This document shows, piece by piece, positions 16,077 through 34,822 of a stretch of DNA of 51,521 nucleotides. Both the position numbers and the translations under genes were made by a program. The DNA is from Asanoa siamensis (GTDB lineage Bacteria > Actinomycetota > Actinomycetes > Mycobacteriales > Micromonosporaceae). The notes under the pieces are model-generated. The model saw only the letters and a list, made by a program, of their open reading frames with translations, ran no database searches and was not told the DNA's origin. The stretch is taken from positions 1 to 51,521 of the forward strand of contig NZ_BONE01000056.1 in assembly GCF_016862555.1 (NCBI RefSeq). The letters are read 5' to 3'. Positions within the stretch are counted from its first letter, which is position 1. The number at the start of each line of letters is the position of its first letter.

Positions 16077-16222
16077 GGGCTCAGCGTATGACCCAGCGTC
16101 ACTGCCGTGGATCCGGCGCACCCCGGATCTCGCCATTAAGGGATCGGGTTCCGTGGGTCCCACTCGACCCTGACGGTACGGTGCTGAGACACTTTGGGCG
16201 CGGATTGACCGAGGGGGTTGGT

Positions 16223-17746: not shown

Positions 17747-17973
17747 TCGCGGCGTCAACTTCTCGCTAGCTGCCCACATCGTGTCTTGATCGCTCAGGAC
17801 CTTGCCACGAGGCGCAGTTTGAGGAAGGATCTCCGGACCAAGTCATTCGTCCGAATGGCGACGGTACCCGCCCCTTTTTAGGTAACCATTTGCCGGCCGT
17901 CCCCTCAGCTGCGCCCTCGGCGCGCTAGCGTTATGTCCCAAATGACACGTTGATCACCACAGGAGTGTGGATT

Positions 17974-18252: not shown

Positions 18253-18320
18253 CTCAGCAACATCTCGCAATGGATATTGGACCGGGGCGACGAGCCGGGG
18301 GAGCCTGACGGTTCCAGGCG

Positions 18321-19004: not shown

Positions 19005-19201
19005 AGGTGGCCACCAAAGTCCAAATTCTCACCCGAACGGCTAACTTGCCAGCGCCCATCGCCATACTTCGATATTGGCATCGAGGCGCAAGCGGCGCCA
19101 TGGCTTTGACTAGAGGAAGCGTGAGTGAACGAACGGGAAGGCGGCCGTGTGCACCAGTTCAGAACGCTAGCCCGCAATCGGCCCTACCGCGATTCGAATG
19201 A

Positions 19202-19779
19202 TCAGTCAGGGTTCAGGCCCGCGAAGGCCAGGCGGAGGATTTGGTCCACCTGTTCTGCCGGGCGGGCCTTTGTGCAGCTGGGCGCGGTAGCAGATCGGGC
19301 CGTAGAGGATCTCCACCACGTCGTCCAGGTTCGCGTCCGCGCGTAGCTGGCCTTGCGATCGCCCGCGTTCCAGACGGTCCCGGGCCACGCCCGCCCGGGG
19401 CTTCACCAGGCCGTCCGAAGGACTTCGCCACTTCCGGGTCGTCCTGGGCCGCGCCGATCAGGCTGAGGTACGGCGCGAAGCGCGGGCTCGACAGGATCGC
19501 CGCGACGGCGGCCATCTCGGTGCGGAGGTCAGCGATCCGGTCGCCCGCGTCCGGGACATCCGTGGCCTGGCCGGCCAACGCGTTGATGCCCTCCTCGACT
19601 ACCGCCGCCTTCGAGGGCCACGAGCGGTAGATCGTCTGCTTGCCGACGCGCGCGCTTGGCGATCTCCTCGACCTGTGGTGCGGGCCAGGCCCTGCTCGCG
19701 GGACAGCTCCAGGGCGGCCTCGATGATCGCCTGGCGTGCGCTTTCACGGCGGCGGTCGTGGCTCCGTCGACCGCGACAT
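19202..19779 (-). pseudogene. TetR family regulator broken by about five frame changes
   Basis: Read in pieces, this stretch gives a full TetR protein: ESARQAIIEAALELSREQG, VEEIAKRA, VGKQTIYRSWPSKAAVVEEG, DPEVAKSF, DGLVKPRAGVARDRL, DDVVEILYGPICYRAQLH and EQVDQILRLAFAGLNPD before the stop at 19202. By my hand translation the frame changes near 19755, 19685, 19655, 19415 and 19262, each in the same sense (+1, or equally -2). No premature stop interrupts the pieces. Either the gene is dead with odd regularity, or the local sequence holds indel errors. It is divergent from another frameshifted gene, the two ATGs overlapping in CATG at 19777-19780. Confidence 0.75.
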
Positions 19780-20138
19780 GGACACCACCACCGAGAACCC
19801 GTTCGCGGCGGCGCAATACCCCATGCAGGGCGCCATCCCGCTTCCTGAAAGCGTTGCTGCTGATCGCGCTGGGCAACGCGATCAGCAGGCGGCGCCTTCT
19901 TCCCACCTGGGTCGACGGATCGGCCGGCCTACGTCCTCGCCGCGATCAACCTCGCATTCGTCCCTGCGTGTTCTTCGGTGACGAACCGGCCGACTTCTAC
20001 ACCGCACTGGACTGGGGCACCATCGCGACTATGGGCGCCGTCTGGAGCCCGTGGACCCTCGCGGTCAGCATCAGCACGCTGCGCAGCGCCGGCACGATCA
20101 CCACCGCCAGGCCCGTCAAGCAGGACGGGTACGCCTGA
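19778..20138 (+). pseudogene. Small membrane protein gene broken by at least three frame changes
   Basis: Pieces in alternating frames join into one plausible protein of ~120 residues: MDTTTENPFAAAQYPMQG, then FLKALLLIALGNAIS, then GGAFFPPGSTDRPAYVLAAINLAFV, then VFFGDEPADFYTALDWGTIATMGAVWSPWTLAVS and the C-terminus VKQDGYA. It would have about three membrane helices. The frame changes lie near 19835, 19887 and 19965. I do not recognise the family. As a divergent partner of a TetR gene it may be the regulator's target. The same caveat about sequence errors applies. Confidence 0.6.
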
Positions 20139-20244
20139 CCAAGCAGCGAAAGTGCCCGGGTCCCGACGGGGGGATCGGGGATTTCTTTGCCCCGACGAGC
20201 TTGACAGCGGCTGGCCTGAGGAGCATATTCAACCTAGAAGTTAA

Positions 20245-20260
20245 TTAACCGAGTGGTTGA
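20245..20260. promoter_or_regulatory. Putative ArsR operator
   Basis: TTAACC-GAGT-GGTTGA is an imperfect inverted repeat (one mismatch in six-base arms) in an AT-rich stretch 16 bases upstream of the arsR-type start codon. The position suits autorepression. Inferred from symmetry and placement only. Confidence 0.45.
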
Positions 20261-21122: not shown

Positions 21123-23162
21123 TCAGCGCCGCGTCAGGTCCACGTTGAACGTGGGTTGCTGACCCAGCCGGCGGTACGCGGCGAGACCGTCCGACGTGCG
21201 CGTGACCCGCGAGTCCTTGCCGCTCTGGTCGGCGGGCGTGTCGAAATAGACCATCGCCTTCAGCCGCGGGAACATCGAGATCTGCCGCGCCACCGAGTCG
21301 TACAGCTCGGCCATGTGCCCGGGGTTCCGCGACGAATACCAGACTCCCCACTCGCCGAGCATGAACGGCTTGTTCGGGTGCCGCGCGGCCGCGTAGTTGT
21401 AGAAGCCCGGCCAGTCCGGCGCGCTGCTCGACGTGCGGTTCATCAGCTCCTCGAAGTCGCCGTACCCGTACTCGCCCCGCTCGCTGTGCGCGTAGACGTC
21501 CCAGCCCAGCCAGTCGACGACGTCGTCGCCGGGATACAGGTCCTCCCACCACGACTGCGTCAACCACGGGATGTACGCCATGTGCACCATCACCGAGACC
21601 AGGTTGGTGACGCCCTGCGCCCGCAACCGGTTGATCACGTACCGGAACATGTTGCGGTAGTCCGTCGCGGTGTAGCCGGAACCGCTCGACGCGCGGACGT
21701 CGTTCTCGGGCTCGTGGTGCACGGTGAAGAAGAACGGGTCCGTGAAGTTGTCGCGGATGTGCTCGGCCAGCCGGTCGAGATAGTTGTCGGTGTCCTCGTC
21801 ACCCCGGGCGATCCGCGCCCAACTCGCACCGGTCGGCTTCCAGTTGAGGAAGAGCAGGCGCGGTTTGGCCGGGTCGCGGGCGAGCCGCATCTCCATCGCG
21901 GTCGGGAAGATCTCGGTGCCCCGGTGATAGGCGTGATAGATCGCCTGCGTACGACCGGTGTCCGCCTCGAAGTCCAACAGCGCCTCATCGCGCGGCTGGT
22001 CCGTGTGCGCACCAGGGGCGACACCCCAGAGCACCCCACACGTGGGTACGAGTCGCGGCCCCAACGAGCATCGCGGGTCACCGCCGGGCGTCGTCGGACT
22101 GGTCGAAGGAGTAGGCGTCGGCGGCCCGGCGGTCGGGGTCGAGGTCGGGCCCGCGGTCGGCGTCGAAGTCGGGCCAGTGGTCGGGGTCGACGTCGGCCCC
22201 GCGGTCGGCCCGGCGGTCGGCGTGGAAGTCGGCCCGGCGGTGGGCGTGGAAGTCGGCCCAGCGGTCGGCGTGGGAGGCGCCGGCGTCGTCGGGTCCGTGG
22301 TCGGCGCCGGCGTCGTCGGCTCGTCCGTCGGGTCGTCGGTCGGATCCGGCACCCCGGGCAGATCCGGCAGGTCAGGAAGATCCGGCAGGTCCGGGAGATC
22401 GGGCACCCCCGGCAGGTCGGGCAGATCCGGAAGGTCAGGCACCCCCGGCAGCCCGGGCAGGTCCGGCGGCTCCGGCCGGTCCGGCGGCGGAGGCAGGCTC
22501 GGCCGCGGCCACGACGGCATCCCCGGCAGGTCACCCACGCCCGGCACCCCCGGCAGACCGGCACCGACCCACGGCGTCACCGCGTCCTGCCAGGACACCC
22601 GCAGCGTCGGCGCCGCGCCGGCCGCCCGTACCCCGTCGCCGTCGAAGAAGTCCGCGGCCGCACCGCCCGGCGCGGTCACCGCGAACGCGTACGTCCCCCG
22701 GCCCTTGATCGCCTTCGACACGTCGAACCGCACCGACCGGTCGGACGGCCCGGGCCGGGCGATCCCCAGCACCGACCCCAGCGGCGGCGCGTTGAACCGG
22801 TCCAGCCCGTCCTCGCGCCACGACGTGGCCGGCACCGCGCTGATCTCCAGCAGCCGCGGCAGGTCGCCGGCCCGCCGGGTCAGCGTGATCTCGGCCCGCG
22901 CCGGCGTCCGTTTCGCGCGCCCCGAGGCCAGGTCGAACTTCAGGTAGGTGACGGCGGCCCCACCGCCCAGCCCGCCCGCGACCAACTGCACGCGACTCCC
23001 GCGGGGGCTCTCCCCCGTCGTCGTCGCGTACCCGTCGGCGCTCGCGGCCAGCCGGATGTCGGGATTGGACCCGAGGGCGCCACCGACGACGCCCAGCAGG
23101 ACGGCGAAGCTGGTCAGGCCGGCCGCGACCGCGGCGCGCCGTCCTCGCAGTGGTCTGGCCAT
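21123..23162 (-). CDS. Secreted GH26-like glycoside hydrolase with long Pro-rich linker
   Basis: This 679-residue protein has an N-terminal signal segment (RGRRAAVAAGL then FAVLLGVVGG), a beta-sandwich domain of the DNRLRE/CBM96 type (~35-195), a low-complexity linker (~205-360) of Pro-Asp-Leu and Thr-Pro-Thr-Ala-Gly repeats, and a C-terminal catalytic domain like beta-mannanase family GH26. The likely acid/base is Glu484 in HHEPEND and the nucleophile Glu604 in GEWGVWY. It would cut a beta-linked polysaccharide outside the cell. The start at 23162 has GGAGGGA upstream. It is divergent from the Wzz-like gene, and a second GH26-like gene lies in the same cluster, so it may trim the cluster's own polymer. 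Confidence 0.85.
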   Translation of the reverse strand: MARPLRGRRAAVAAGLTSFAVLLGVVGGALGSNPDIRLAASADGYATTTGESPRGSRVQLVAGGLGGGAAVTYLKFDLASGRAKRTPARAEITLTRRAGDLPRLLEISAVPATSWREDGLDRFNAPPLGSVLGIARPGPSDRSVRFDVSKAIKGRGTYAFAVTAPGGAAADFFDGDGVRAAGAAPTLRVSWQDAVTPWVGAGLPGVPGVGDLPGMPSWPRPSLPPPPDRPEPPDLPGLPGVPDLPDLPDLPGVPDLPDLPDLPDLPDLPGVPDPTDDPTDEPTTPAPTTDPTTPAPPTPTAGPTSTPTAGPTSTPTAGPTAGPTSTPTTGPTSTPTAGPTSTPTAGPPTPTPSTSPTTPGGDPRCSLGPRLVPTCGVLWGVAPGAHTDQPRDEALLDFEADTGRTQAIYHAYHRGTEIFPTAMEMRLARDPAKPRLLFLNWKPTGASWARIARGDEDTDNYLDRLAEHIRDNFTDPFFFTVHHEPENDVRASSGSGYTATDYRNMFRYVINRLRAQGVTNLVSVMVHMAYIPWLTQSWWEDLYPGDDVVDWLGWDVYAHSERGEYGYGDFEELMNRTSSSAPDWPGFYNYAAARHPNKPFMLGEWGVWYSSRNPGHMAELYDSVARQISMFPRLKAMVYFDTPADQSGKDSRVTRTSDGLAAYRRLGQQPTFNVDLTRR
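22115..22480. repeat. In-frame codon repeats of the GH26 linker
   Basis: From ~22115 to 22290 a unit of about 24 bases encodes Thr-Ser-Thr-Pro-Thr-Ala-Gly-Pro. From ~22350 to 22475 shorter 9- and 12-base units encode Pro-Asp-Leu and Pro-Gly-Val. All copies keep the frame, so they are protein linker repeats, prone to slippage and length variation. Confidence 0.85.
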
Positions 23163-23180
23163 CAGGTTCCCTCCATCGTG

Positions 23181-23198
23181 ACGCCGGTCTACCGGCGT
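23181..23198. promoter_or_regulatory. Palindrome in the leader of the secreted GH26 gene
   Basis: ACGCCGGT-CT-ACCGGCGT is an eight-base-arm inverted repeat 18 bases upstream of the ATG at 23162, in the region shared with the divergent Wzz-like gene. It could be a repressor site or a hairpin affecting translation. Function inferred from symmetry only. Confidence 0.45.
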
Positions 23199-23265
23199 GG
23201 CTGATGGTGCACAAGACCGACTTTAACCAAAATCAGATACTTAGGAGCATTAGCCGTTTTTCTGG

Positions 23266-23294
23266 GTGACCGGCGCCTCCGCCGTTTGTACGAT
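23266..23294 (+). promoter_or_regulatory. Probable promoter of the exopolysaccharide operon
   Basis: GTGACC at 23266-23271 and TACGAT at 23289-23294 are separated by 17 bases, a good match to the housekeeping actinobacterial consensus. The first gene starts at 23348, leaving a leader of about 45 bases. Confidence 0.5.
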
Positions 23295-23347
23295 TCGTCC
23301 CCCCACGGGCGAGTTACGCGAAACCCACCCCGCCCGTTGAACCTCCC

Positions 23348-25225
23348 GTGGAAACCACCGGCCCCACCGCTCCCGACCTGTCCGACTACCTCGGCCTGCT
23401 CCGCAGGCAGTGGTGGCTGGTCGTGCTCGGATGCGGGCTCGGCATCGGCGGAGCCTTCGGCGCGACCCAGCTCATGCCGAAGACCTACGAGTCGGTCACC
23501 TCCGTCCTGGTGCAGCCGGCCGGCCAGGACACCAACGTCGCCGGCGGGCGCACCAAGGGCGACATCAACCTCGACACCGAGGCCCAGCTCGTCGCCTCGA
23601 CCCAGATCGCGGTCGGCGCGGCCGAGCTCCTGCGCTCCGGCGAGGCGCCCGACGTGCTGGCCAAGGGGGTCTCGGTCACGGTGCCGGCGAACACCGCCGT
23701 CCTGGAGATCACCTACAAGGCCGCGGACCCGAGCCGCGCCCAGACCAACTCGCACGCGTTCGCCGAGGCGTACCTGCGCAACCGCGAGGCCAGCGCGCAG
23801 GCCGGCATCGACGCCCAGATCGCGGCGCTGACCAGCAAGGTCAAGCAGCTCAACACGAACCTGGCGCAGATCAACTCCAAGCTGGCCGCGCTCTCCGAGA
23901 CCAGCGCGTCGCGGCCGAGCCTGGAGAGCCAGCGCAGCACCAACCAGAGCCAGCTCAACTCGCTGAGCGGGAAGCTCAACGACCTGACCACCGAGACGGT
24001 CAGCGCCGGCAAGATCATCAGTGACGCGCAGCTGCCGACGACCCCGACCAAGCCCAACAAGAAGCTCAACCTGGCCACGGGCGCGATGCTCGGGCTGCTG
24101 CTGGGCCTGTCGGTCGCGGTGATCCGGGAACGGCTCGACCGCCGGGTACGGGCGGCCGGTGACGTGGAGCGGGTCGCCCGGGTGCCGGTGCTGGCCGAGC
24201 TGAGCATCGCCTCGGGGCCGCAGCTCGACGAGATCTTCCAGCCCTACGCCTCCGGGGGCCGGACCTTCAACCGCCTGCGCAACGAGGTGCTGGCCAGCCT
24301 GCGCCCGGAGGACCGGGTCGTGGTCGTCGCCGGCGCCAGCCGGGGCGTCGCGTCCACGCTGGTCGCCGCGAACCTGGCGGCCGCGATGGCCCGCAGCGGC
24401 AGCGAGGTCGTGCTGGTCGGCGCCCACCTGCCGGACAGCCTGGTGGACGCCGCGCCGCTGGCCCGGATGTTCGGGGTGGGCGCCACGCCCGGCCTGGGCG
24501 ACGTGCTGACCGGCAAGGTCCCGCTGCGGTCCGCGGTGCAGCGGGCGCCCCGCGTCCCGTCGCTGCGGGTGATCACCACGGGCGGCACCGGCAGCGCCGG
24601 CGGGCTGCTCCAGTCGCAGGCCCTGCGCCAGGCGCTCCACCAGCTCCGCCGGCGCGACTGGTACGTCGTGATCGACGCGCCGTCCACGGCCACCAGCGCC
24701 GACGCCCAGAGCCTGGCCCGGCTCGCCGACGCCGCGATCCTCACCGTCGAGTTGCGGCGCACCCGCCGCCCGGAGGTGGTCGACGCGGTCGCCCAGCTCA
24801 CCCGGGTCGGCACCCCGCTGCTGGGCAGCGTGGTGATCCCCCGGCTGGCGAGCGGCATCGAGAACGGGCACGGCGACGACGAGGCCGACTTCAACCAGGA
24901 CGACGACGCGCCGGACTTCGACGACCTGCGCGACCTCGACGACTCCGGCGACCTGGCCCGCGAGCTGCCGCGAGCCCGCCCGGGCACGGCGTCGGTGCCC
25001 GCGTCAGCACCGCCGAAGGCCCGCTCCGAGGACGACTCCGGCGACCTGAGCATCGCGGGCATCAACCTGGCCGGCAGCCGGCCGATCACCCGCAACCGGC
25101 CCGCCGCCGCCCGGCCCCGCCAGCACGACCCCGACCCCGACACCGCGGTGCTGCGCCGGCTCGACAACGACACGCTCCGCGACATGGACCGCACCGGCAA
25201 CAATGGTCAGCACTCAGCTTCGTGA
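23348..25225 (+). CDS. Wzz/BY-kinase-like polysaccharide co-polymerase, P-loop degenerate
   Basis: This 625-residue protein has the chain-length-determinant layout: a helix at ~20-42, an extracytoplasmic domain with a helical stretch (KVKQLNTNLAQINSKLAAL), a second helix at ~240-257, then a cytoplasmic Rossmann-like domain. The region equivalent to the BY-kinase Walker A reads GASRGVAST (329-337): the catalytic lysine is missing. VVIDAPST resembles Walker A'/B, and the C-terminus has no tyrosine cluster. It should set polymer length or act as scaffold without kinase activity. GTG start; the polymerase gene overlaps its end by 23 bases. Confidence 0.85.
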   Translation: METTGPTAPDLSDYLGLLRRQWWLVVLGCGLGIGGAFGATQLMPKTYESVTSVLVQPAGQDTNVAGGRTKGDINLDTEAQLVASTQIAVGAAELLRSGEAPDVLAKGVSVTVPANTAVLEITYKAADPSRAQTNSHAFAEAYLRNREASAQAGIDAQIAALTSKVKQLNTNLAQINSKLAALSETSASRPSLESQRSTNQSQLNSLSGKLNDLTTETVSAGKIISDAQLPTTPTKPNKKLNLATGAMLGLLLGLSVAVIRERLDRRVRAAGDVERVARVPVLAELSIASGPQLDEIFQPYASGGRTFNRLRNEVLASLRPEDRVVVVAGASRGVASTLVAANLAAAMARSGSEVVLVGAHLPDSLVDAAPLARMFGVGATPGLGDVLTGKVPLRSAVQRAPRVPSLRVITTGGTGSAGGLLQSQALRQALHQLRRRDWYVVIDAPSTATSADAQSLARLADAAILTVELRRTRRPEVVDAVAQLTRVGTPLLGSVVIPRLASGIENGHGDDEADFNQDDDAPDFDDLRDLDDSGDLARELPRARPGTASVPASAPPKARSEDDSGDLSIAGINLAGSRPITRNRPAAARPRQHDPDPDTAVLRRLDNDTLRDMDRTGNNGQHSAS

Positions 25226-26585
25226 CCGCGGTCGCCGCGCCCGCGCGTGGCGACCGCTCACCTCGGAGGTCTGGCTGCCCGCCTGGCCGCTGACCGGGGT
25301 GCTGCTGCTCTATCCACTCTGGTGGGCGCTCGGCCTCGGCGTGCTGATCTTCCCGCTGGCCGCCGTGCCGATGGCCTGGTTCCTGGTCAAGGCGCAGGCG
25401 GCGGGCCGCAGCATCCGGCTCCCACCCGGGTTCGCGTACTGGGTGGTGTTCCTGGCCGTTCTGGTCATCGGTGTCGCAGTGCTCGGCACGGACCCGACCG
25501 GCACCGTGCCCGAGCGCGGGATCGAGCGGATCCCGGGCGCGGTGTTCCGGCTGGGTGAGTACGGCGCCCTGACCGTGCTGCTGCTCTACGCGGGCAACCT
25601 CAACGAGCGCGAGCTGCCGATCCGCAAGCTGGTCCAGCAGCTCGGCTGGCTGTTCGTGGTCACCGTGGCCGGCGGCCTGCTCGGCGTCTACGCCGGCACG
25701 TTCGAGTTCACCTCGCCGATCGAGCTGCTGCTGCCGGAGCACATCCGGGGCAAGGGCTTCATCCGGAGCCTGGTCCATCCGTACGCGGCCCAGATCCACG
25801 ACATCATCGGCGACCACCGACCGCGCCCGGCGGCGCCGTGGGGCTACACCAACACCTGGGGCAACAACTTCTGCCTCCTGATGGTCTGGTTCTGCGCGGC
25901 GGTGTTCGGCGCCGCGACCCGGCGGCGGGTCAAGATCCTCGCGATCGCCTGCCTCGCGGTCTCGGTGATCCCCGTGGTGATCTCGCTGAACCGGGGCCTG
26001 TGGATCGGCCTCGGCGTCGCCGCCCTGTACGCGGCCGTCCGGCTCGCCCTCGCCGGCCGGGTCTGGGTCATCGGCGTGCTGGTCGCCGCGGTCGCCGCCC
26101 TCGGCGCGGCGCTGGCGGTCACCCCGCTCGGCGACGTGGTCGACGCCCGGCTCGACAACGGCAAGTCCAACGGCGTCCGCTCGTACCTGGTCGAACGGGC
26201 GCTGACCGGCGCCACCGAGTCCCCGCTGATCGGCTTCGGCTCCACCCGGACCACGATCGGCGGCCGCAACTCGATCGCGGTCGGCGAGAGCCACGACTGC
26301 GAGCGGTGCGGCAACTTCACCATCGGCGGCAACGGCCAGCTCTGGCAGCTGATCTTCGCGCACGGCCTGATCGGCACGCTGGGCTACCTGGGGTTCTTCG
26401 GCTACGGGATCTGGCGGTTCCGGCGCGACCGCAGCCCGGTCGGCATCGCCGGCAGCTGCGCGCTGGTCGGCTCGTTCGCCGCGATGCTCTGGTACAACAC
26501 GCTGGTCACCCCGCTGGCGTTCATGTTCCTCGCGTACGCGCTGCTCTGGCGCAACGCCCGCACCGACCCCGGAGTGACCCCTTGA
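25203..26585 (+). CDS. O-antigen ligase/Wzy-like polysaccharide polymerase
   Basis: This 460-residue membrane protein has about ten hydrophobic helices and a large loop between middle helices (~165-215, including HPYAAQIHDIIGDHRP). The sequences WGNNFCLLMVWF, SLNRGLWIGLG and GFGSTRT agree with the Wzy_C/O-antigen ligase family, where an arginine after the SxNR motif is functional. It would join repeat units on the outer face of the membrane. The start lies in the 3' end of the Wzz-like gene; the stop overlaps the next start. Confidence 0.85.
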   Translation: MVSTQLRDRGRRARAWRPLTSEVWLPAWPLTGVLLLYPLWWALGLGVLIFPLAAVPMAWFLVKAQAAGRSIRLPPGFAYWVVFLAVLVIGVAVLGTDPTGTVPERGIERIPGAVFRLGEYGALTVLLLYAGNLNERELPIRKLVQQLGWLFVVTVAGGLLGVYAGTFEFTSPIELLLPEHIRGKGFIRSLVHPYAAQIHDIIGDHRPRPAAPWGYTNTWGNNFCLLMVWFCAAVFGAATRRRVKILAIACLAVSVIPVVISLNRGLWIGLGVAALYAAVRLALAGRVWVIGVLVAAVAALGAALAVTPLGDVVDARLDNGKSNGVRSYLVERALTGATESPLIGFGSTRTTIGGRNSIAVGESHDCERCGNFTIGGNGQLWQLIFAHGLIGTLGYLGFFGYGIWRFRRDRSPVGIAGSCALVGSFAAMLWYNTLVTPLAFMFLAYALLWRNARTDPGVTP

Positions 26586-27841
26586 GCCCTGTCGCCACGG
26601 CGCCGGCACACCTGCGAGCACAGGACGCCAAACTGCGCGCGGAGTACCTGCGTGAAGTGCTCGACCTGCTCTATCCCGCACCGTGCTTCACCGACGGCGC
26701 GCCCGGCGACGACACCGACGGCCGGGTGGCCGGCACCCCGGTGGTCGACTACCTGGTCGTGCCGGACGCACGCCGTCCCCGGCTGCTGGTGCCGGCCCGG
26801 TCCCGGCGGATCGCCGCCGCCGCGGTCCGGCGCTACGCCGAGCCGCAGGGCCGGATCGCCAAGCTCAAGCGGGACGCCGTGGTCACCGCGCTGCGCAGCG
26901 GCGCGAGCGGCCTGCTGCTGCGGGACCGGGTCCGGGTCTACGGGCCGGCCGCCGAGACCATCGACGGCTACCTGCACCGGGTGCTCGGCGCCGACGTCGC
27001 CCTCAGCATCCACATCGGACCCGCGCGGGCCAACCGCAAGCCGGTGCTGCAGCTCATCTCCCGGGACGGGCGCACGGTCGGCTTCGGCAAGCTGGGCACC
27101 GGGCCGCTGACCCGCCGGCTGGTGCGGGCCGAGACGGCCGCCTTGAACGCGCTCGCGCACGCCGTGGTCGACGACGTCACGATCCCGAGCGTGCTGCACA
27201 GTGGACAGTGGCGCGGGCACCAGGTGCTGGTGCAGAGCGCCCTGCCGGTCTGGCAGCCGCGGGCGCCGCTCTCGGCCGACCGGCTGGCCGCCGCCATGCG
27301 CGCGGTCGCGCTCTGCTGCGGCACCTCGAAGGGCTGGCTGTCGACCAGCCCGTACTGGTCGGACATGCGGGAGCGGCTGGCCGGGGTGGCGGACCGGCCG
27401 GACGGCGCGGCGCTGGGCGAGGCCGCCCGCGCCCTGGCCGCCCGGGCCGGCGACACCGACCTGCGGTACGGCGCCTGGCACGGCGACTGGTCGCCGTGGA
27501 ACATGGCCCCGCTGTCGAGTTCCTTGCTGGTCTGGGACTGGGAGCGGTTCACGCTGGGCGTGCCCCTCGGCTTCGACGCGCTGCACTACGAGTTGCAGCG
27601 CCGGATCCAGACCGACCCCGACGCGGCGGCCGCCGTCGAGCGGATGGTCACCCGGGCGCCGCTGCTGCTCGCGCCGTTCGACGTGCCGCGCGAGGCGGCC
27701 GAGTTGACCGCGCTGCTCTACCTGATCGACCTGGCCGCCCGCTATCTCGCCGACCGGCAGGCCGAGGCCGGCGCCCGCCTCGGCGTGCTCGGGACCTGGC
27801 TGCTGCCCGTACTCGTCCGCCGTGTGGAGGCGTTCCGGTGA
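26582..27841 (+). CDS. APH-fold phosphotransferase in the polysaccharide cluster
   Basis: This 419-residue protein has a C-terminal aminoglycoside-phosphotransferase/choline-kinase-like catalytic core: the Brenner-type motif HGDWSPWNM followed by VWDWERF, corresponding to the catalytic Asp/Asn and the metal-binding Asp. The N-terminal ~200 residues are less typical. Given its neighbours, the likely substrate is a sugar, lipid-linked intermediate or glycan rather than an antibiotic, but this is inference. The TTG at 26582 overlaps the preceding TGA (TTGA) and has GGAG seven bases upstream, which decides the start. Confidence 0.82.
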   Translation: MSPVATAPAHLRAQDAKLRAEYLREVLDLLYPAPCFTDGAPGDDTDGRVAGTPVVDYLVVPDARRPRLLVPARSRRIAAAAVRRYAEPQGRIAKLKRDAVVTALRSGASGLLLRDRVRVYGPAAETIDGYLHRVLGADVALSIHIGPARANRKPVLQLISRDGRTVGFGKLGTGPLTRRLVRAETAALNALAHAVVDDVTIPSVLHSGQWRGHQVLVQSALPVWQPRAPLSADRLAAAMRAVALCCGTSKGWLSTSPYWSDMRERLAGVADRPDGAALGEAARALAARAGDTDLRYGAWHGDWSPWNMAPLSSSLLVWDWERFTLGVPLGFDALHYELQRRIQTDPDAAAAVERMVTRAPLLLAPFDVPREAAELTALLYLIDLAARYLADRQAEAGARLGVLGTWLLPVLVRRVEAFR

Positions 27842-28710
27842 AGTCCTCGCATGTTCCGGCCCCCGTCAAGCGGGTCGTCCACTTCGGATCCCGGTCGTAC
27901 GGCCGGATCACCGCGCCCGCCCGGATGCTGCCGTCGTTCCTGATCTGCGGTGGGCAGCGGTGCGGCACGACGTCGCTCTACCGGGCCCTGGCCGCACACC
28001 CCGTGGTGCTCAAAGCCGTGCTGCACAAGGGCGTGCATTATTTCGACACGTCCTATCAGCACGGGTTCGCCTGGTACCGCGGGCATTTCCCGCTCCAGCG
28101 CACCGCCGCCAAGGTCGAGGAACGCTGGGGTGTGCCGGCGCAGACCTTCGAGTCGAGCCCGTACTACATGTACCACCCGCACGCGGCGGCCCGGATCGCC
28201 CGTGACCTGCCCGGCGTCAAGCTCGTCACGCTCGTCCGTGACCCGGTCGAGCGGGCCTACTCGCAGCACGCCCACGAGCTCGCCCGCGGCTTCGAGTCGG
28301 AGCCGTCGTTCGCCCGCGCGCTGGCGCTCGAGCCGGGCCGGCTGCACGGCCAGGAGGAGCGCCTCGCCGACGACCCGACCTACTACAGCTTCGCCCATCA
28401 GCACCACGCCTACCGGGCCCGCGGCGAGTACGCCACCTACCTGGACGCGATGGCCGGCCGGGTCGGCCGCGACCAGATCCTGGTGGTGGAGAGCGAGCGG
28501 TTCTTCAGCACGCCGGAAGAGGTCTACGACGAGGTGCTGGCCTTCCTCGGCCTGCCGAACCTGGGCTACCCGCCGTTCGAGCGGCACAACGCCCGGCCGC
28601 GCGAGTCCGCGATGGACGAACGTACCCGGCGCGACCTGACCAGCCATTTCGCGGCGCACGACGACCGCCTGACCGAGTGGCTGGGCCACCCGCCGGTCTG
28701 GCGCCGATGA
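27838..28710 (+). CDS. Sulfotransferase (PAPS-dependent), first copy
   Basis: This 290-residue protein transfers sulfate from PAPS to a hydroxyl or amine. The 5'-phosphosulfate loop is GGQRCGTTSLYRAL (near residue 38) and the 3'-phosphate motif is VRDPVERAYSQH (~132), as in heparan-type sulfotransferases. It has no signal peptide, so it acts in the cytoplasm, before export of the repeat unit. GTG at 27838 overlaps the upstream TGA by four bases, and the flippase gene overlaps its end in the same way. Confidence 0.92.
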   Translation: MKSSHVPAPVKRVVHFGSRSYGRITAPARMLPSFLICGGQRCGTTSLYRALAAHPVVLKAVLHKGVHYFDTSYQHGFAWYRGHFPLQRTAAKVEERWGVPAQTFESSPYYMYHPHAAARIARDLPGVKLVTLVRDPVERAYSQHAHELARGFESEPSFARALALEPGRLHGQEERLADDPTYYSFAHQHHAYRARGEYATYLDAMAGRVGRDQILVVESERFFSTPEEVYDEVLAFLGLPNLGYPPFERHNARPRESAMDERTRRDLTSHFAAHDDRLTEWLGHPPVWRR

Positions 28711-30275
28711 CGGCGCCCCCCGCGAGTCTCGCGCCCGCCGACAGCGCAGCGACGAAGAAGGCGATCGGCGGGGTCGCGCGGGGTGGGGTCGCCGGCATCC
28801 TCGGTGCCGGGGTGGCCGGGCTCGCCGGGCTCGCGGTCACCTGGCTCGTCGCGCACCGGCTCGGTCCCGAGCACGCGGGCGCCTTCTTCGCCGCGACGGC
28901 GGCGTTCGTGCTCACCTCGACGCTGGCGAAGCTGGGCACCCAGACCGGGCTGGTCTACTGGCCGGCCCGGCTGCGCGCCCAGGGGCACGGCTTCCTGCTC
29001 GGCGCCTGCCTGCGCAGCGCGTTCGCGCCGGTGGTCTGCGCGGCCGTCGCCGTCGGGATCGCGCTGTACGTGTCCGCGCCGGAGCTGGCCAGCCTGACGG
29101 CCGGTGACGCGCCGCCGGCGATCCACGCCGAACTGGTGCGGCAACTCCGGCTGCTGGCCGCGTTCGTACCGCTGGCGGTGCTCTCCGACACCCTGCTCGC
29201 GGCCACCCGCGGCTACCGGCTGATCCGGCCGACCGTGCTGCTCGACAAGCTGGTCCGGCCCGGGCTGCAGACGGTCGGCGTCGCCGCGGTCGCGGTCAGC
29301 GGCGTCGCCGGGCCGAGCCTGTTCGCGCTCGCCTGGGCCCTGCCGTACGTGCCGACCGCCCTGCTCGCCGGGTACGCCCTGCACCGCGCACACACCCGCA
29401 CCATGGCCGACATCGTGCCGACCCGGGTGAAGCGCTCGCACCGGGCCAGCATGCGCCGGGCGTTCTGGCGGTTCACCGGGCCGCGCTCGATCGCCTCCGT
29501 CGCCCAACTCGCGCTGCAGCGCGTCGACGTGCTGCTGGTCGCGGCGCTGGCCGGCCTCGGCGCCGCCGGGCTCTACGCGGTCGCGGGCCGGTTCGTGGTG
29601 CTCGGCCAGTTCGCCAACCAGGGCATCACCCAGGCGGTGCAGCCCCGGCTGGCCGAGGCCCTGGCGGTCAAGGACCGGCTCGCCGCCAACACCCTCTACC
29701 AGACCGCGACCGGCTGGCTGATCCTGCTGACCTGGCCGCTCTACCTGCTGGTGATGACGTACGCGCCGGCGTACCTCGGCATCTTCGGTCCTGCCTTCCG
29801 CGACGGTGCCTCGATCGTCGTCGTGCTCGCGGCGGCGATGCTGGTCGCGACCGGCTGCGGGATGGTCGACACCGTGCTGTCCATGGCCGGGCGGACCACC
29901 TGGAACCTCGGGAACGTGCTGGTCGCGCTCGGCCTGACGATCGCGCTCGACCTCGCGCTGATCCCCCGGATGGGCGCGCTCGGCGCCGCCATCGGGCTGG
30001 CCGCCGCGGTGGTGGCCAACAACGTGCTGCCGCTCGCCCAGGTCGGGTTCGGTCTCAAGCTGCACCCCTTCGGCGCCGGCTGGCTGTCGGCCGCGGCGGT
30101 CACGGTCGTCAGCTTCGGCGTCGCGCCGCGGGCGGTCGGCTACGTCCTCGGCGGCGGGCCGGGAGCCACGATGACCGCCCTCGGTGTCGCGGGCGCCACG
30201 TATCTGGCCGGCGTCCGCCTCCTGCGGCGCCCACTCGCGTTGGACGCCTTGAAAGCCCTGCGCCGCAAGCGCTGA
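28707..30275 (+). CDS. Wzx/MurJ-like polysaccharide flippase
   Basis: This 522-residue protein has about 12-14 hydrophobic helices and the layout of the polysaccharide exporter (MATE/MOP) superfamily: a first helix with repeated Gly-Ala-Gly, LVAHRLGPEHAGAFFAATA, and a C-terminal half beginning near AGLGAAGLYAVAGRF. It is expected to flip lipid-linked repeat units. The ATG at 28707 overlaps the sulfotransferase TGA (ATGA). Confidence 0.88.
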   Translation: MTAPPASLAPADSAATKKAIGGVARGGVAGILGAGVAGLAGLAVTWLVAHRLGPEHAGAFFAATAAFVLTSTLAKLGTQTGLVYWPARLRAQGHGFLLGACLRSAFAPVVCAAVAVGIALYVSAPELASLTAGDAPPAIHAELVRQLRLLAAFVPLAVLSDTLLAATRGYRLIRPTVLLDKLVRPGLQTVGVAAVAVSGVAGPSLFALAWALPYVPTALLAGYALHRAHTRTMADIVPTRVKRSHRASMRRAFWRFTGPRSIASVAQLALQRVDVLLVAALAGLGAAGLYAVAGRFVVLGQFANQGITQAVQPRLAEALAVKDRLAANTLYQTATGWLILLTWPLYLLVMTYAPAYLGIFGPAFRDGASIVVVLAAAMLVATGCGMVDTVLSMAGRTTWNLGNVLVALGLTIALDLALIPRMGALGAAIGLAAAVVANNVLPLAQVGFGLKLHPFGAGWLSAAAVTVVSFGVAPRAVGYVLGGGPGATMTALGVAGATYLAGVRLLRRPLALDALKALRRKR

Positions 30276-30295
30276 ATGCCGACCGAAGGAGAAAC

Positions 30296-31288
30296 GTGCG
30301 TATCCCCGCCGCCGTGGTGTCCGTCCTCGTGCTCGCGCTCGCCGGCTGCACCGCGGGCAAGCCGGAGCCGGAGGCCACGGCCGACTTCCAGCGGAGCCCG
30401 CGCGGAGTGGCCACCAAGACCGGGCCGTTCGAGAGCGGGCCGGTCAAGCCGCCGACGGACAAGGTCTGGGTGGGCGCCTGGGTCAAGCCCGAGGTGTGGG
30501 GCCAGGCCGGCCGGCGCGACGCGGTCGCCAAGGTGGAGAAGTCGCTCGGCCGCCGGTTCGACGTCATCAACACCTACCGGACCTTCGACGAGAAGTTCTG
30601 GACCGACACCGACAAGGAGTACGTCAAGCGCGGCAGCGTGGTGATGGTCAGCTGGGCCTCCGGCGACACGCGGTCCATGGTGGACGGGCGGCACGACGAG
30701 ATGATCCGGGCCCAGGCCAAGAAGATCGCGAAGGCCAAGCGTCCGGTGATGATGCGGTTCCGCTGGGAGATGGACCGGCCCAACCTGCAGGCGACGATGT
30801 GGTCGCCGGAGGACTACGTCGCGGCCTGGAAGTACACCCGGCGGATCTTCAAGGAGGAGGGCGCCACCAACGCGTCCTGGGTGTGGTGCCCGACCGCGGA
30901 GGGCTTCGACCGGGGTGACGCACCGGCCTTCTACCCGGGCGACGACCAGGTCGACTGGACCTGCGTCGACGTCTACGCCAGCAGCGAGTTCAAGCCGCTG
31001 GACCAGCTCATGGGCAATTTCCTGAAGTGGGCGGCGGAGCGGCCCAAGCCGATCATCATCGGCGAGTTCGGGGTGTCCGAGGAGTGGGGGTCCGCGAAGC
31101 GGGCCGAGTGGATCCACGACGCGACCGAGGTGTTCCAGGCCAACCCGCAGATCCGGGCGGTGGCCTACTTCGACTCGGATCCCGACGACAACCCACCGAC
31201 GCTGCAGTTCAAGATCTCGGACGACGAGGCCGCCTTCGGCGCGTTCCGCGAGCTGGCGGGTGAGCTGTCCGGTGAACGGGCTCCCTGA
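30296..31288 (+). CDS. GH26-like lipoprotein glycoside hydrolase
   Basis: This 330-residue protein has a short signal peptide with lipobox Leu-Ala-Gly-Cys (Cys ~18), so it should be anchored outside the membrane. The catalytic domain resembles GH26: acid/base Glu158 in RFRWEMDRPN and nucleophile Glu257 in IIIGEFGVS, with VDVYAS and AYFDSD strands as in the larger GH26 protein at 21123. GTG at 30296 has AAGGAG upstream, 20 bases after the flippase stop. It may release or edit the polymer during export. Confidence 0.85.
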   Translation: MRIPAAVVSVLVLALAGCTAGKPEPEATADFQRSPRGVATKTGPFESGPVKPPTDKVWVGAWVKPEVWGQAGRRDAVAKVEKSLGRRFDVINTYRTFDEKFWTDTDKEYVKRGSVVMVSWASGDTRSMVDGRHDEMIRAQAKKIAKAKRPVMMRFRWEMDRPNLQATMWSPEDYVAAWKYTRRIFKEEGATNASWVWCPTAEGFDRGDAPAFYPGDDQVDWTCVDVYASSEFKPLDQLMGNFLKWAAERPKPIIIGEFGVSEEWGSAKRAEWIHDATEVFQANPQIRAVAYFDSDPDDNPPTLQFKISDDEAAFGAFRELAGELSGERAP

Positions 31289-31299
31289 TCCAGGAGGCC

Positions 31300-32070
31300 T
31301 CAGCCGCGGCGCTTGGCGGTGGCGAGGAGGCGCAGGGCGTACGGGGCGTCGTGGCGCAGGTAGCGGCGGGCCAGCCGGCGGGGCTCCGAGCCCAGCCGGT
31401 GCGCCCACTCCAGGCCGGCGCGCTGCATCCAGACCGGGGCGCGGTGCTGGTGGCCGGCGACGAAGTTGACGGCCATGCCGCAGCCGAGGAACCAGGTGCG
31501 CGGCAACTCGCTGCGCAGCCGGCCGATCAGCCGCTCCTGCCGGGGGAAGCCGATGCCGACGAAGACCAGGTCGGGCGCCGCGGCGACCACCGACGCGACA
31601 GCGTCGTCCACCGCGGCCGGGTCGGCGTCGAAGCCGAACGGGGGCGACCGGTGCCCGGCCACCGCCAGCCCCGGACAGCTCGTGGCCAGCCGGTCGGCGG
31701 CCCGCTGCGCGATGTCGGGGGTGTCGCCACCGAGGACGAACACCGAGCGGGTGTCGGCGGCCAGCCCGGCGGAGAGCGACCAGATCAGGCTCGATCCGGT
31801 GACCCGTTCCGGCAGCGGGTTGCTGGCCAGCCGGCTGGCCCAGATCAACGGCATGCCGTCCGCGACGACCAGCGTGGCGTCGTCCAGGAACGCGCGGACC
31901 TCGGGGCACGACCGGGCCTGCCGGACGATGTCCACGTTCGGGGTGAGGATCCGCCCTCCGTGCCCGCGCGCCAGCGCCCGCCGCACCACGGTGACCACCC
32001 GGCGTTCGGTGATCATGTGTAGCCGCGAACCGTCCAGCCGAACTCGGGCAAATCCGTAATGAAGTGACAC
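31300..32070 (-). CDS. WecG/TagA/CpsF family glycosyltransferase
   Basis: This 256-residue enzyme transfers a sugar from a nucleotide donor to a lipid-linked acceptor. Family motifs are TPNVDIVRQAR, ADGMPLIWASRL, FVLGG, VGIGFPRQERL and FLGCGMAVNFVAG. GTG at 32070 is favoured over an in-frame ATG at 32127 because GGGAG lies seven bases before it. It is the only gene of the polysaccharide cluster on the minus strand: convergent with the GH26 lipoprotein (11-base gap) and divergent from the second sulfotransferase. Confidence 0.9.
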   Translation of the reverse strand: MSLHYGFARVRLDGSRLHMITERRVVTVVRRALARGHGGRILTPNVDIVRQARSCPEVRAFLDDATLVVADGMPLIWASRLASNPLPERVTGSSLIWSLSAGLAADTRSVFVLGGDTPDIAQRAADRLATSCPGLAVAGHRSPPFGFDADPAAVDDAVASVVAAAPDLVFVGIGFPRQERLIGRLRSELPRTWFLGCGMAVNFVAGHQHRAPVWMQRAGLEWAHRLGSEPRRLARRYLRHDAPYALRLLATAKRRG

Positions 32071-32120
32071 TTCGGCTCTCCCGCTCGTTATGTGATGAAA
32101 ACGAGCGAAGGCGGGTAAAG

Positions 32121-33071
32121 GTGGCACGCTTACTCTTCGTCGGCGGGCTGGGCCGAAGCGGCACCACGCTGGTCGAACGGCTGCTCGGCGAGCTGCCTGG
32201 GGTCTGCGCGCTCGGGGAGGTCGTCCACCTCTGGCAACGTGACATCCGCGGCGACGAGCGATGTGGCTGCGGCGAGCGGTTCTCCGTGTGCGCGTTCTGG
32301 ACCAAGGTCGGCGAGACCGCCTTCGGCGGTTGGGGCAACGTCGACGTCTACCGGGTGCTCGCCCTGCAGGCGGCGGTGGAACGCACCCGGCACATCCCGC
32401 GGCTCGCCTCGCCCCGGCTGCCCGACGACTACCGGGCCCAGGTGCGGGAGTACGCCGGCTACTACACCGCCGTCTACCGCGCCGCCGCCGAGGTGACTGG
32501 GGCGTCCGTGCTCGTGGACTCCTCCAAGCACAGCGCGCTCGCGCACTGCCTGCGCTGGGCCACCGGGATCGACCTGCGGGTGGCCCACGTCGTCCGCGAC
32601 CCCCGCGGCGTCGCGCACAGCTGGACCAAGGTGGTGGCCCGGCCCGAGACCGACGGCCAGAGCGAGATGACCCGCTACTCCCCCGGCCGCTCGGCCATGC
32701 TCTGGAACGCCCACAACGCCGCGTTCGGCCTGCTCGCCCGCCGCGGCGTGCCGCTGCTGCGGGTCCGCTACGAGCAGTTCGTCGCCGACCCGTCGGCCGG
32801 CCTGACCGCGCTCGCCGAGTTCGCCGGGCTCGCGCTCGGCGAGGGCGACCTCGACTTCCTCACCGAGGCGCACGCCGACCTGCGGGTCGGGCACAGTGCC
32901 GCCGGCAACCCGATGCGGTTCTCGGTCGGCCGGATACCGCTGCGCCGCGACGACGGCTGGGTGAGCGGCCTGCCGGCCACGGACCGGCGCCTGGTCGGCG
33001 CGGTCTGCGCCCCGCTGCTGCGCGCGTACGGCTACCCGGTCATGGTCTCTTCCCGCGGAGGTACGCAATGA
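32121..33071 (+). CDS. Sulfotransferase, second copy
   Basis: This 316-residue protein is unlike the first sulfotransferase in detail but has the same fold motifs: the phosphosulfate loop GGLGRSGTTLVERLL at the N-terminus and the 3'-phosphate site VVRDPRGVAHSWTKV. A cysteine-rich insert (ERCGCGERFSVCAFW) follows the first motif. The pair suggests sulfation at two positions or on two sugars. GTG at 32121 starts just before the P-loop; only a weak ribosome site is seen. The next gene overlaps by ATGA. Confidence 0.9.
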   Translation: MARLLFVGGLGRSGTTLVERLLGELPGVCALGEVVHLWQRDIRGDERCGCGERFSVCAFWTKVGETAFGGWGNVDVYRVLALQAAVERTRHIPRLASPRLPDDYRAQVREYAGYYTAVYRAAAEVTGASVLVDSSKHSALAHCLRWATGIDLRVAHVVRDPRGVAHSWTKVVARPETDGQSEMTRYSPGRSAMLWNAHNAAFGLLARRGVPLLRVRYEQFVADPSAGLTALAEFAGLALGEGDLDFLTEAHADLRVGHSAAGNPMRFSVGRIPLRRDDGWVSGLPATDRRLVGAVCAPLLRAYGYPVMVSSRGGTQ

Positions 33072-33985
33072 GCGAGTGGCCGTCGGTCGGTGTGGTCATC
33101 CCGACCCGGAACCGGCCGGAACTGCTCCGGCAGGCGCTGGCCGCGGTGCGGGCGCAGGACTACCCGGGGCAGTTGCGGGTCGTGGTGGCGTTCGACCAGA
33201 CCGAGCCCGACCTGTTGCTGGCCACCACGGAGGGCGTACCCGTGATGGTCATCTCGAACTGGCGCGCACCCGGCCTCGCCGGCACCCGCAACAGCGGGAT
33301 CCTGGCCCTCGACACCGAACTGGTCGCCTTCTGCGACGACGACGACGAGTGGGCGCCCGACAAGCTGCGGACCCAGGTGCCCGCGCTGACCGCGTCGACC
33401 GCCGAGTTCGCGACCTGCGCCATCGCGGTGTCGTTCCAGGGCAAGGTGACCCCGCGGCTGGCCGGGATGGCCTCCGTCGGCGTGGCCGAGCTCGCCCGCT
33501 CGCGGATGGCGATGCTGCACTCGTCGACGTTCCTCATGCGGCGGTCGGCGCTGGTCGAGTCGGACCGGATCGGGCTGGTCGCCGAGGACGCGCCGGGTTC
33601 GCAGAACGAGGACTGGGACCTGCTGCTGCGGGCCGCGCGCCGGCACCCGATCGTGCACGTGGACGAGCCGCTCGTGCGGGTGCTGTGGGGGCGCAGCTCG
33701 CATTACGCGTACGAGTATCAGACGAAGATCTCGTCGCTGCGCTGGATGATGGAGCGGCACCCGGAGATCCGCGGCTGCCCGCCCGGCGCGGCCCGGGTCT
33801 ACGGCCAGCTCGCCTGCTGGAGCGCGGCGACCGGCAACCGGGCCGAGGCCTGGAAGTGGACGCGGGAGGCGGTCCGGGCCAACTGGCGCGAACCGCGCAC
33901 GGCGATCGCGGTCGCCGCGATGACGGGCGCGGTCAAGGTGGAGAACGTCCTGTCCACCCTGCACAGATATGGCCGCGGCATCTGA
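33068..33985 (+). CDS. Glycosyltransferase family 2
   Basis: This 305-residue protein has a GT-A fold start VVIPTRNRPELLRQALAAVRAQ, GLAGTRNSGIL and the metal-binding acidic run FCDDDDEW, followed by an acceptor region with NEDWDLLLRAA. It transfers a sugar from a nucleotide donor inside the cell. The C-terminal helical part (~240-305) is not membrane-spanning. It overlaps the sulfotransferase stop by four bases, so glycosylation and sulfation are translationally coupled. Confidence 0.92.
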   Translation: MSEWPSVGVVIPTRNRPELLRQALAAVRAQDYPGQLRVVVAFDQTEPDLLLATTEGVPVMVISNWRAPGLAGTRNSGILALDTELVAFCDDDDEWAPDKLRTQVPALTASTAEFATCAIAVSFQGKVTPRLAGMASVGVAELARSRMAMLHSSTFLMRRSALVESDRIGLVAEDAPGSQNEDWDLLLRAARRHPIVHVDEPLVRVLWGRSSHYAYEYQTKISSLRWMMERHPEIRGCPPGAARVYGQLACWSAATGNRAEAWKWTREAVRANWREPRTAIAVAAMTGAVKVENVLSTLHRYGRGI

Positions 33986-34018: not shown

Positions 34019-34822
34019 GTGAAGGTGACTGTCGCCGACGGCGTCGGGCTCAACGTGCGACACACGGTGGGCGCCGCGGCGCCCGCGTTCCTGTTGGTGC
34101 ACGGCCTGGCGTCCAACGCCCGGCTGTGGGACGGGGTGGCCGCCGCGCTCGCCGCGGCCGGGCACCCGAGCTACGCCGTCGACCTGCGCGGTCACGGCGA
34201 GTCCGACCTGCCCGACCAGGGCTTCGACACCGCGACCGCGGCGCGCGACCTGGCGTCCGTGATCGCGTCGCTCGGTCTCGACCGGCCGGTGGTGGCCGGG
34301 CAGTCCTGGGGCGGCAACGTGGTGGTCGAGCTGGCCGCGACGCACCCCGCGCTGGTGCGGGCGCTGGCCCTGGTCGACGGCGGGTGGATCGACCTGCCGG
34401 CCGAGTTCGACTCGTGGCCGGCCTGCGCGGCGGCGCTGCGGCCACCCGACGTCAACGGGTGGCGGGCCGACGACCTACGGGCGCGGCTGCTGGCCGGGCA
34501 TCCCGACTGGTCGGCCGCCGCGGTCGACGCGACGCTGGCCAACCTGCGGGTCGGCCCCGACGGGCGGCTGTCGCGGCGGTTGCCGGTCGAGCGGCACATG
34601 GAGATCCTGCGCAGCATGTGGGACCACCCGCCGGGCCGGTGGTTCCCGCGCCTGACGATGCCGGTGCTGCTGCTGCCGGCCGGCGACCCGGCGCGCGTCG
34701 CGTCCGCGGCGGCGGCGATCCCGTCGGCCACGGTGCGGGCTTACGCGGGCGGCGACCACGACCTGCACGCGCAGCAGCCCGACCGGCTGGCCGCCGACCT
34801 GCTGACGCTGGTGCGGTCATGA
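34019..34822 (+). CDS. Alpha/beta-hydrolase
   Basis: This 267-residue hydrolase shows the oxyanion segment LLVHGLASNARLWDG, nucleophile elbow GQSWGG and the C-terminal histidine in GGDHDLHAQQP. The substrate is unknown. The GTG at 34019 is preferred; a TTG at 33989 is possible and neither has a strong ribosome site. The stop overlaps the next gene (ATGA), indicating coupling to the S51-like fusion protein. Confidence 0.88.
   Translation: MKVTVADGVGLNVRHTVGAAAPAFLLVHGLASNARLWDGVAAALAAAGHPSYAVDLRGHGESDLPDQGFDTATAARDLASVIASLGLDRPVVAGQSWGGNVVVELAATHPALVRALALVDGGWIDLPAEFDSWPACAAALRPPDVNGWRADDLRARLLAGHPDWSAAAVDATLANLRVGPDGRLSRRLPVERHMEILRSMWDHPPGRWFPRLTMPVLLLPAGDPARVASAAAAIPSATVRAYAGGDHDLHAQQPDRLAADLLTLVRS

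Follow-up and report, generated by a model that had tools for sequence, protein, structure and literature searches.

The closest described system to the one analyzed here is wps-1 of Actinoplanes missouriensis (PMC13390465, June 2026), for which a sulfated polymer has been proposed that, according to its authors, awaits experimental verification. As reported there, normal sporangia require every wps gene except wpsD (wpsF is among those required), and deletion of wpsH resembles deletion of the whole cluster. Deletion of AMIS_7390, a gene of the sulfate adenylyltransferase (SAT)/adenosine 5'-phosphosulfate (APS) kinase family, also damages sporangia, a phenotype that the authors called unexpected and tied to sulfur amino acids. 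Here we examine a window of 51,521 nucleotides, comprising contig C56 (NZ_BONE01000056.1) of the 8.78 Mb genome of Asanoa siamensis, in which genes of the same kinds lie between positions 16070 and 33985. We consider it likely that this locus is the Asanoa form of wps-1, serving the production of a Wzx/Wzy-type sulfated exopolysaccharide from two separated gene blocks. We favor this reading because the supply of 3'-phosphoadenosine 5'-phosphosulfate (PAPS), both sulfotransferases and the Wzx/Wzy machinery form a conserved set.

Other bacteria offer partial parallels. The synechan (xss) cluster of Synechocystis PCC 6803 likewise combines Wzx, Wzy and a polysaccharide co-polymerase with two sulfotransferases that belong to distinct subfamilies, but it differs in having eight glycosyltransferases, a measured sulfated product and other regulators, and the accessible text of its description names no kinase, GH26 protein or APS kinase of the wps kind (PMC8205485). 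From marine bacteria of other phyla, sulfated capsular polysaccharides have been reported together with gene-cluster analyses for Vibrio KMM 8419 (PMC11641403) and for Cobetia marina KMM 1449 (PMC11766843). The exopolysaccharide of Kocuria AG5 is likewise actinobacterial, with a reported 25.6% sulfate, but the available part of that chemical report describes no gene cluster (PMC9504734). Among the literature matches listed, as judged by title and the start of the abstract, PMC13390465 is the sole account of an actinobacterial gene cluster for a sulfated polysaccharide.

Compared by domain and gene order rather than by sequence, the window shares with wps-1, as that cluster is presented in the accessible text, genes for a GT2 glycosyltransferase, a sulfotransferase, a GT26 glycosyltransferase, a GH26 protein, Wzx, a second sulfotransferase, a kinase-like protein, Wzy and Wzz (PMC13390465). 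The SAT/APS-kinase gene stands beside the A. missouriensis cluster, whereas its counterpart in the window is not directly adjacent, since a CBM96-GH26 gene and about 3.4 kb separate it from the Wzz gene. The window also lacks a counterpart of wpsD (DUF4262) or wpsF (methyltransferase), for which neither a Pfam match nor a gap is present in 21123-33985. A sulfated exopolysaccharide had already been suggested in a first-pass annotation of this DNA, made from sequence alone, and it is still the best reading, but the core idea has been published for the matching cluster (PMC13390465). The locus itself is genuine and conserved, and deletions in the matching cluster of a relative have phenotypes. 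The present analysis adds the PAPS logic, a gene that is a candidate for priming, the division into two blocks and the wide distribution of the system, none of which we found among the open-access literature matches listed or in the accessible text of PMC13390465; the latter names no priming enzyme or cysQDN genes for wps-1.

Gene content and conservation of the locus

Window proteins were assigned by Pfam domain search, with NCBIfam as a second profile set. The flippase, polymerase and co-polymerase of a Wzx/Wzy-dependent pathway are all represented on the plus strand. The Wzz-like co-polymerase (wpsK, 23348-25225) has Pfam Wzz and GNVR matches and a BY-kinase-like domain, the Wzy-like polymerase (wpsJ, 25203-26585) has a Wzy_C match of 22.8 bits (cut-off 31.7), and the Wzx-like flippase (wpsG, 28707-30275) has a Polysacc_synt match of 26.1 bits (cut-off 28.2). 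The latter two matches fall below the Pfam cut-offs, and we consider these calls credible because the positions of both genes are conserved across relatives. Two glycosyltransferases complete the assembly genes, one of the GT26 (WecG/TagA/CpsF) family on the minus strand (wpsC, 31300-32070; Pfam and NCBIfam, E 4.9e-53) and one assigned by Pfam to GT2 on the plus strand (wpsA, 33068-33985). The first-pass annotation had named these proteins and two unlike sulfotransferases, all of which the domain searches bear out, but it had overlooked a kinase gene at 26582-27841. It had also described the genes as joined by four-base overlaps. Such overlaps are present at the Wzy/kinase, kinase/ST1, ST1/Wzx and ST2/GT2 junctions (ST1 and ST2 being the two sulfotransferases), but Wzz and Wzy overlap by 23 bases and Wzx is followed by its GH26 neighbor after a gap of 20 bases. 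The GT26 and CBM96-GH26 genes lie on the opposite strand, and the location of the former means that the locus is not one operon.

We assessed conservation in two sets of loci. The first comprises 40 family loci around ST1 matches, hand-picked from a listing (38 genomes, two of which have two loci), and the second comprises 61 loci from named organisms fetched by ST1 match, among which are at least eight of the 40. Wzz, Wzy, the kinase, ST1 and Wzx are all present in 39 of the 40 family loci and in 59 of the 61 named loci, which answers the suggestion in the first-pass annotation that relatives be searched for the same gene set. Among the named loci, with truncated ones included in the counts, Wzx and ST1 are present in 61, the kinase in 60, Wzy and Wzz in 59 each, the GH26 lipoprotein in 56, GT2 and ST2 in 53 each, GT26 in 51, the APS kinase in 49 and the CBM96-GH26 protein in 39. 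Thus, in ST1 loci the kinase is as constant as the flippase and the polymerase. ST1 matches at E<=1e-3 occur in 183 of 200 family genomes, many of them weak and not necessarily wps.

The system extends beyond the family. Of 394 genomes from the class, 66 have a kinase match at E<=1e-15, and three of these belong to the family of the window; when 20 regions from the 63 kinase-bearing genomes outside the family were fetched by kinase match, ST1 was present in 19 and the five-gene core in 14. Named organisms with ST1 relatives include Nocardiopsis, Serinicoccus and Glycomyces. None of these is known to form Actinoplanes-type sporangia and, if none does, the polymer would not be a sporangium-only product; for Asanoa itself, the literature matches listed contain no direct statement on morphology. 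We also observed a divergent cluster type (L078-L082, L141, L143, L145, L199-L202) with a different gene order, in which the kinase, ST1, ST2 and GT2 are present in most members and no GT26 match was found. Two genomes, G071 and G030, hold both cluster types (L056 and L080; L060 and L082).

A Walker A lysine is a criterion for an active BY-kinase co-polymerase of the Wzc/CpsD kind. The NCBIfam matches of the Wzz protein, which cover a CpsD/MinD-type ATPase region, are all below the NCBIfam cut-offs, and its Walker A stretch reads GASRGVAST. Because a lysine appears at none of these nine columns in 93 aligned rows, the Wzz-type protein probably lacks kinase activity and would act as a co-polymerase with a dead ATPase domain.

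The overlooked kinase (wpsI, 26582-27841, plus strand) begins with a TTG codon and matches the APH family below the Pfam cut-off. Its sequence gave no match at E<=1 to solved structures. An AlphaFold model (pLDDT 87.7) has as its Foldseek neighbors fructosamine-3-kinase, aminoglycoside kinases, maltokinase and glucosamine kinase, with low query-length TM-scores (best 0.44 among the matches listed), and the HGD..N and WD.E motif residues are retained in nearly all ungapped rows of 99 aligned. A role as a protein kinase was considered. Because the modeled fold has sugar and aminoglycoside kinases as its neighbors, we prefer a sugar or small-molecule substrate.

The two GH26-like proteins noted previously are also evident in Pfam. 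One, on the minus strand at 21123-23162, combines a CBM96/DNRLRE domain, a Pro/Thr-rich linker and a GH26-like domain (E 1.2e-5), and by eye is probably secreted. The other (wpsE, 30296-31288, plus strand; E 1.5e-6) resembles a lipoprotein, with a lipobox recognized by eye. The CBM96-GH26 protein carries HHEPE and GEWG stretches, and a GH26 domain with both catalytic glutamates is found in the locus. We considered whether the substrate may be of the mannan type. The nearest solved relatives of the lipoprotein are the GH26 endoglucanase H and AlXyn26A, followed by a beta-1,3-xylanase, and the weak matches of the CBM96-GH26 protein include mannanases; its matches to circumsporozoite protein were dismissed because they fall in the Pro/Thr-rich linker. 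In many named Actinoplanes-type loci, unlike the window, the CBM96-GH26 relative lies beyond the APS kinase as seen from the polymer genes.

Sulfate activation and the sulfotransferases

The functional unit probably extends leftward from the polymer genes to a fusion gene at 16070-17746 (plus strand) of the AMIS_7390 type, whose product combines PUA-like, ATP-sulfurylase-like and APS kinase domains according to Pfam, motif counts and alignment to solved SATs. It is the sole strong APS kinase match in the genome, a second, partial match at E 7.5e-4 having been set aside, and an APS kinase fusion lies within the fetched neighborhood of 49 of the 61 named ST1 loci. In many relatives the APS kinase is nearer to the wps cluster than in the window. 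The QxRNPxHxxH motif is catalytic in ATP sulfurylase. Where the fungal enzyme has QTRNPMHRAH, the fusion reads VADRPLHRPQ, which departs from that pattern, and the Q, R, N and second H are absent from all 73 ungapped rows (75 aligned, two gapped there). The P-loop of the APS kinase domain is intact, and the fusion is expected from these features to make PAPS.

In the same genome, CysH (L085, 1423-2187) has the stretches CCFMRKVEPL and SIGCWPCT, which fit both motifs of APS reductases, CCXXRKXXPL and SXGCXXCT (PMC3125206); the available text of that paper treats as ambiguous one such enzyme whose genome encodes an APS kinase as well. Judged by these motifs, cysteine synthesis in this host probably does not need PAPS, which should then serve the sulfotransferases rather than cysteine. 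Loss of PAPS for two sulfotransferases would be a better account of the AMIS_7390 phenotype than a nutritional one. We also considered co-occurrence of the APS kinase with ST1 as a test of dedication, and this failed, given that the kinase is found in 199 of 200 family genomes regardless of ST1.

ST1 (wpsH, 27838-28710) and ST2 (wpsB, 32121-33071), both on the plus strand, belong to different subfamilies and are the only Sulfotransfer_3 and Sulfotransfer_1 matches at E<=1e-3 in the genome. A search with the PF03567 profile found no match in the host genome, but its control was equally silent and the result is uninformative. ST1, matched by Sulfotransfer_3 and Sulfotransfer_1, is 95% identical to ST1 of Asanoa ishikariensis and A. 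iriomotensis and is of the heparan sulfate sulfotransferase type, its nearest matches being a bacterial sulfotransferase and heparan sulfate 3-O- and N-sulfotransferases. For ST2, matched by Sulfotransfer_3, a model with pLDDT 90.3 has tyrosylprotein sulfotransferases as its best fold matches, followed by polyketide-type sulfotransferase domains. Alignment with relatives reveals that P-loop-type and RDP..S motifs, which we take to be PAPS-binding, are preserved in both. One separate occurrence is recorded from genome G034, where an ST1 relative directly adjoins an APS kinase fusion and no other wps match is found within 20 kb (L077); this pair perhaps makes another sulfated product.

A second gene block with a candidate primer, and the flanks of the window

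The first-pass annotation remarked that the cluster lacks a priming enzyme and that its repeat unit might be completed from elsewhere. A fitting priming-type transferase (PGT), whose role we infer, is encoded on contig C1 as a PF02397 plus PF13727 protein in the order glmU-(prs)-rpl25-pth-PGT-cysQ-cysD-cysN, where CysQ, CysD, CysN and the other gene names were assigned from domains and by eye. The genome holds two further PF02397 proteins, on contigs C2 and C3, which are distant from PGT in a tree, on long branches, and two PF00953 genes, one of which is presumably MraY.

Linkage to wps supports this assignment, and it also meets the earlier suggestion that a priming transferase be sought near the gene set in relatives. 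Six regions, drawn from three genera (G062 and G040; G012, G086 and G050; G035), hold the PGT-cysQ-cysD-cysN block and wps genes within the same 20 kb; they were fetched because the listed positions were close together. More broadly, both PGT and ST1 are present in 123 genomes, and in at least 24 of these, which belong to five genera (17 of them to a single genus), the two are no more than 46 kb apart on the same contig; for most of the 24 the count is based on listed positions. In the Nocardiopsis loci L141, L143 and L145, cysN-cysD-cysQ come after ST2. CysD and CysN are present in five of the 20 regions from outside the family: in L199, L200 and L202 they stand beside a fuller cluster, and in L203 and L205 a pth-cysQ-cysD-cysN stretch lies next to the kinase, the other wps polymer genes being represented there only by ST1 or GT2. 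As a side observation, a second cysQ-cysD-cysN copy lies away from pth in G001, G010 and G003 (L226, L227, L229), with cysN in pieces in L226.

The junction between pth and cysQ is informative on direct inspection. PGT adjoins pth in all 20 ST1-bearing genomes inspected (19 plus that of the window), with cysQ next in 19. CysD was also searched in a chosen set of 24 genomes, namely G022, which bears wps, and 23 others. It gave 22 matches, and 17 loci were fetched; in all 17 the pth-cys locus is kept without PGT there, although G027 shows no cysQ. Six of these 17 genomes have no ST1 match at all (G053, G073, G027, G036, G032 and G058), in G034 ST1 occurs outside a wps cluster, G045 carries the cluster of divergent type, and nine have weak ST1 matches (E 1e-17 to 1e-62), including G003 and also G140, which has a PGT elsewhere in its genome. 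Within the single group g22, G022 carries wps and PGT, while in G053 and G073 the operon lacks PGT and the genome gave no ST1 match.

A presence cut of E<=1e-80 for PGT, set after the data were seen, divides the 200 family genomes into 123 with both ST1 and PGT, 50 with neither, 18 with ST1 only and nine with PGT only. The 18 comprise six in g34, where the single fetched locus is L077, eight in g4, where the two fetched loci (L078 and L079) are of the divergent type, and G070, G197, G111 and G066; five of the nine PGT-only genomes are at most 94% complete. As a marker of pth-linked PGT the cut is imperfect, being passed by solitary PGTs in six genomes, and direct inspection of pth-cys loci is the cleaner measure.

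Two flanking features of the window are noted for completeness. The stretch at 17750-20250, between the APS kinase and the CBM96-GH26 gene, has a GC content of about 0.63-0.67, compared with about 0.72 around it, and encodes a DUF6082 protein at 18321-19004 (Pfam) with few other convincing genes. On the other side, an open reading frame at 34819-36417 (plus strand) encodes a Gly-rich, collagen-like stretch and, after it, a C-terminus resembling the CysS anticodon-binding domain, and is adjoined by an alpha/beta hydrolase gene; relatives of this pair occur near wps elsewhere, the hydrolase in 10 and the collagen-like protein in eight of the 61 named loci.

A proposed pathway and its alternatives

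Our observations concern gene content, sequence motifs, conservation, linkage and patterns of presence and absence, and from them we infer a pathway, including its reactions and their order, the substrate of the kinase, the identities of CysQ, CysD and CysN, and the presence of sulfate. The block on contig C1 would supply the first step, with PGT loading the first sugar phosphate onto undecaprenyl phosphate, CysDN making APS and CysQ clearing 3'-phosphoadenosine 5'-phosphate. In the window block, the fusion protein would convert APS to PAPS, GT26 and GT2 would lengthen the lipid-linked unit, the APH-fold kinase would phosphorylate a sugar, either in that unit or in a precursor, and the two sulfotransferases would transfer sulfate from PAPS. 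Wzx would then flip the unit, Wzy would polymerize it under the Wzz-type co-polymerase with its probably dead ATPase domain, and the GH26-like enzymes may trim or release the chain.

Several observations weigh against this reading. Sulfate on the polymer is deduced from genes, both here and in A. missouriensis, and in the latter the wpsB mutant is reported to be normal by scanning electron microscopy, with about tenfold fewer spores (PMC13390465). The nearest solved fold of ST2 is a tyrosylprotein sulfotransferase, the near-universal occurrence of the APS kinase in the family means that it is not exclusive to wps, and CysDN probably serves assimilation as well. Genome G003, one of the 17 without PGT at pth, has a kinase-Wzz-GT2-Wzy cluster (L239) with no sulfotransferase match, and therefore the kinase is not always accompanied by a sulfotransferase. 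With regard to PGT, the 20 genomes with the pth-PGT arrangement were chosen by PGT match, and only six of the 17 PGT-less genomes are free of ST1 matches, the rest carrying mostly weak ones. ST1 and PGT calls are discordant in 27 of 200 genomes, and PGT lacks neighboring cys genes in six of the nine PGT-only genomes (G140, G170, G174, G021, G005 and G059), two of these loci being short contigs. These solitary PGTs (L240-L245) score 607-622 bits, compared with 572-676 for pth- or cys-linked copies, so that the cut does not separate the two kinds and uninspected PGT calls may be paralogues. Finally, the presence/absence counts ignore shared ancestry.

These points bear on four other explanations. 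We regard it as unlikely that PGT stands beside cysQDN by chance while wps is primed by the C2 or C3 enzyme or by one of the WecA type. In its favor are the three PF02397 genes of this genome and its two PF00953 genes, the fact that pathways can share a primer, the 18 of 200 genomes in which ST1 occurs and a strong PGT does not, and paralogues of similar score that stand alone elsewhere; but PGT is present at the pth-cysQ junction in 20 of 20 ST1-bearing genomes inspected and absent in 17 of 17 others, it is linked to wps in several genera, and in the tree the copies on C2 and C3 lie far from it, albeit on long branches. It is similarly improbable that the product is a short sulfated glycan, rather than a free long exopolysaccharide, that a Wzy-like ligase attaches to a lipid, a protein or a polymer of the cell wall. 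The Wzy_C profile represents the O-antigen ligases, and the lipoprotein-like GH26 and the CBM96 protein suggest a surface-bound substrate, but the Wzz-type protein in 59 of 61 named loci points to polymerization.

We give still less credence to the idea that ST1 and ST2 modify a small metabolite, a lipid or a protein tyrosine and merely share a locus with polymer genes. The fold neighbors of ST2 and the isolated ST1/APS kinase pair of G034 would accord with such an acceptor, but ST1 resembles heparan sulfate sulfotransferases, is tied by four-base overlaps to the kinase and Wzx, and keeps the same company in 59 of 61 named loci, and in A. missouriensis its loss is reported to resemble that of the cluster (PMC13390465). 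Least probable, in our estimation, is that the fusion is assimilatory for sulfur amino acids, as suggested for AMIS_7390 in PMC13390465, and that the phenotype is nutritional. The annotation class and the presence of the APS kinase domain in 199 of 200 family genomes would allow this; against it are the APS-reductase motifs of CysH, the degenerate sulfurylase motif, the existence of a separate CysDN pair and the reported absence of macroscopic differences on agar among A. missouriensis mutants, including that of AMIS_7390 (PMC13390465).

Beyond the preferred reading of the locus as a wps-type system for a sulfated exopolysaccharide, we advance a wider proposal tentatively, with more doubt than confidence. 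The genes may represent an old two-block actinomycete system for a sulfated, probably phosphorylated surface polymer, with a dedicated fructosamine-3-kinase-fold sugar kinase in its core alongside Wzx/Wzy and a sulfotransferase of the heparan sulfate type, and a primer placed inside the cysQ-cysD-cysN operon such that initiation and PAPS turnover are co-expressed, and it may serve spore or cell coats generally rather than sporangia alone. For A. missouriensis, loss of PAPS for two sulfotransferases offers a simple cause for the unexpected phenotype of the APS-kinase-gene mutant, and the PGT between pth and cysQ is the candidate gene that should prime the polymer. The question is thereby widened from one sporangium-forming organism to a gene set whose kinase occurs in about one-sixth of the genomes sampled from the class.

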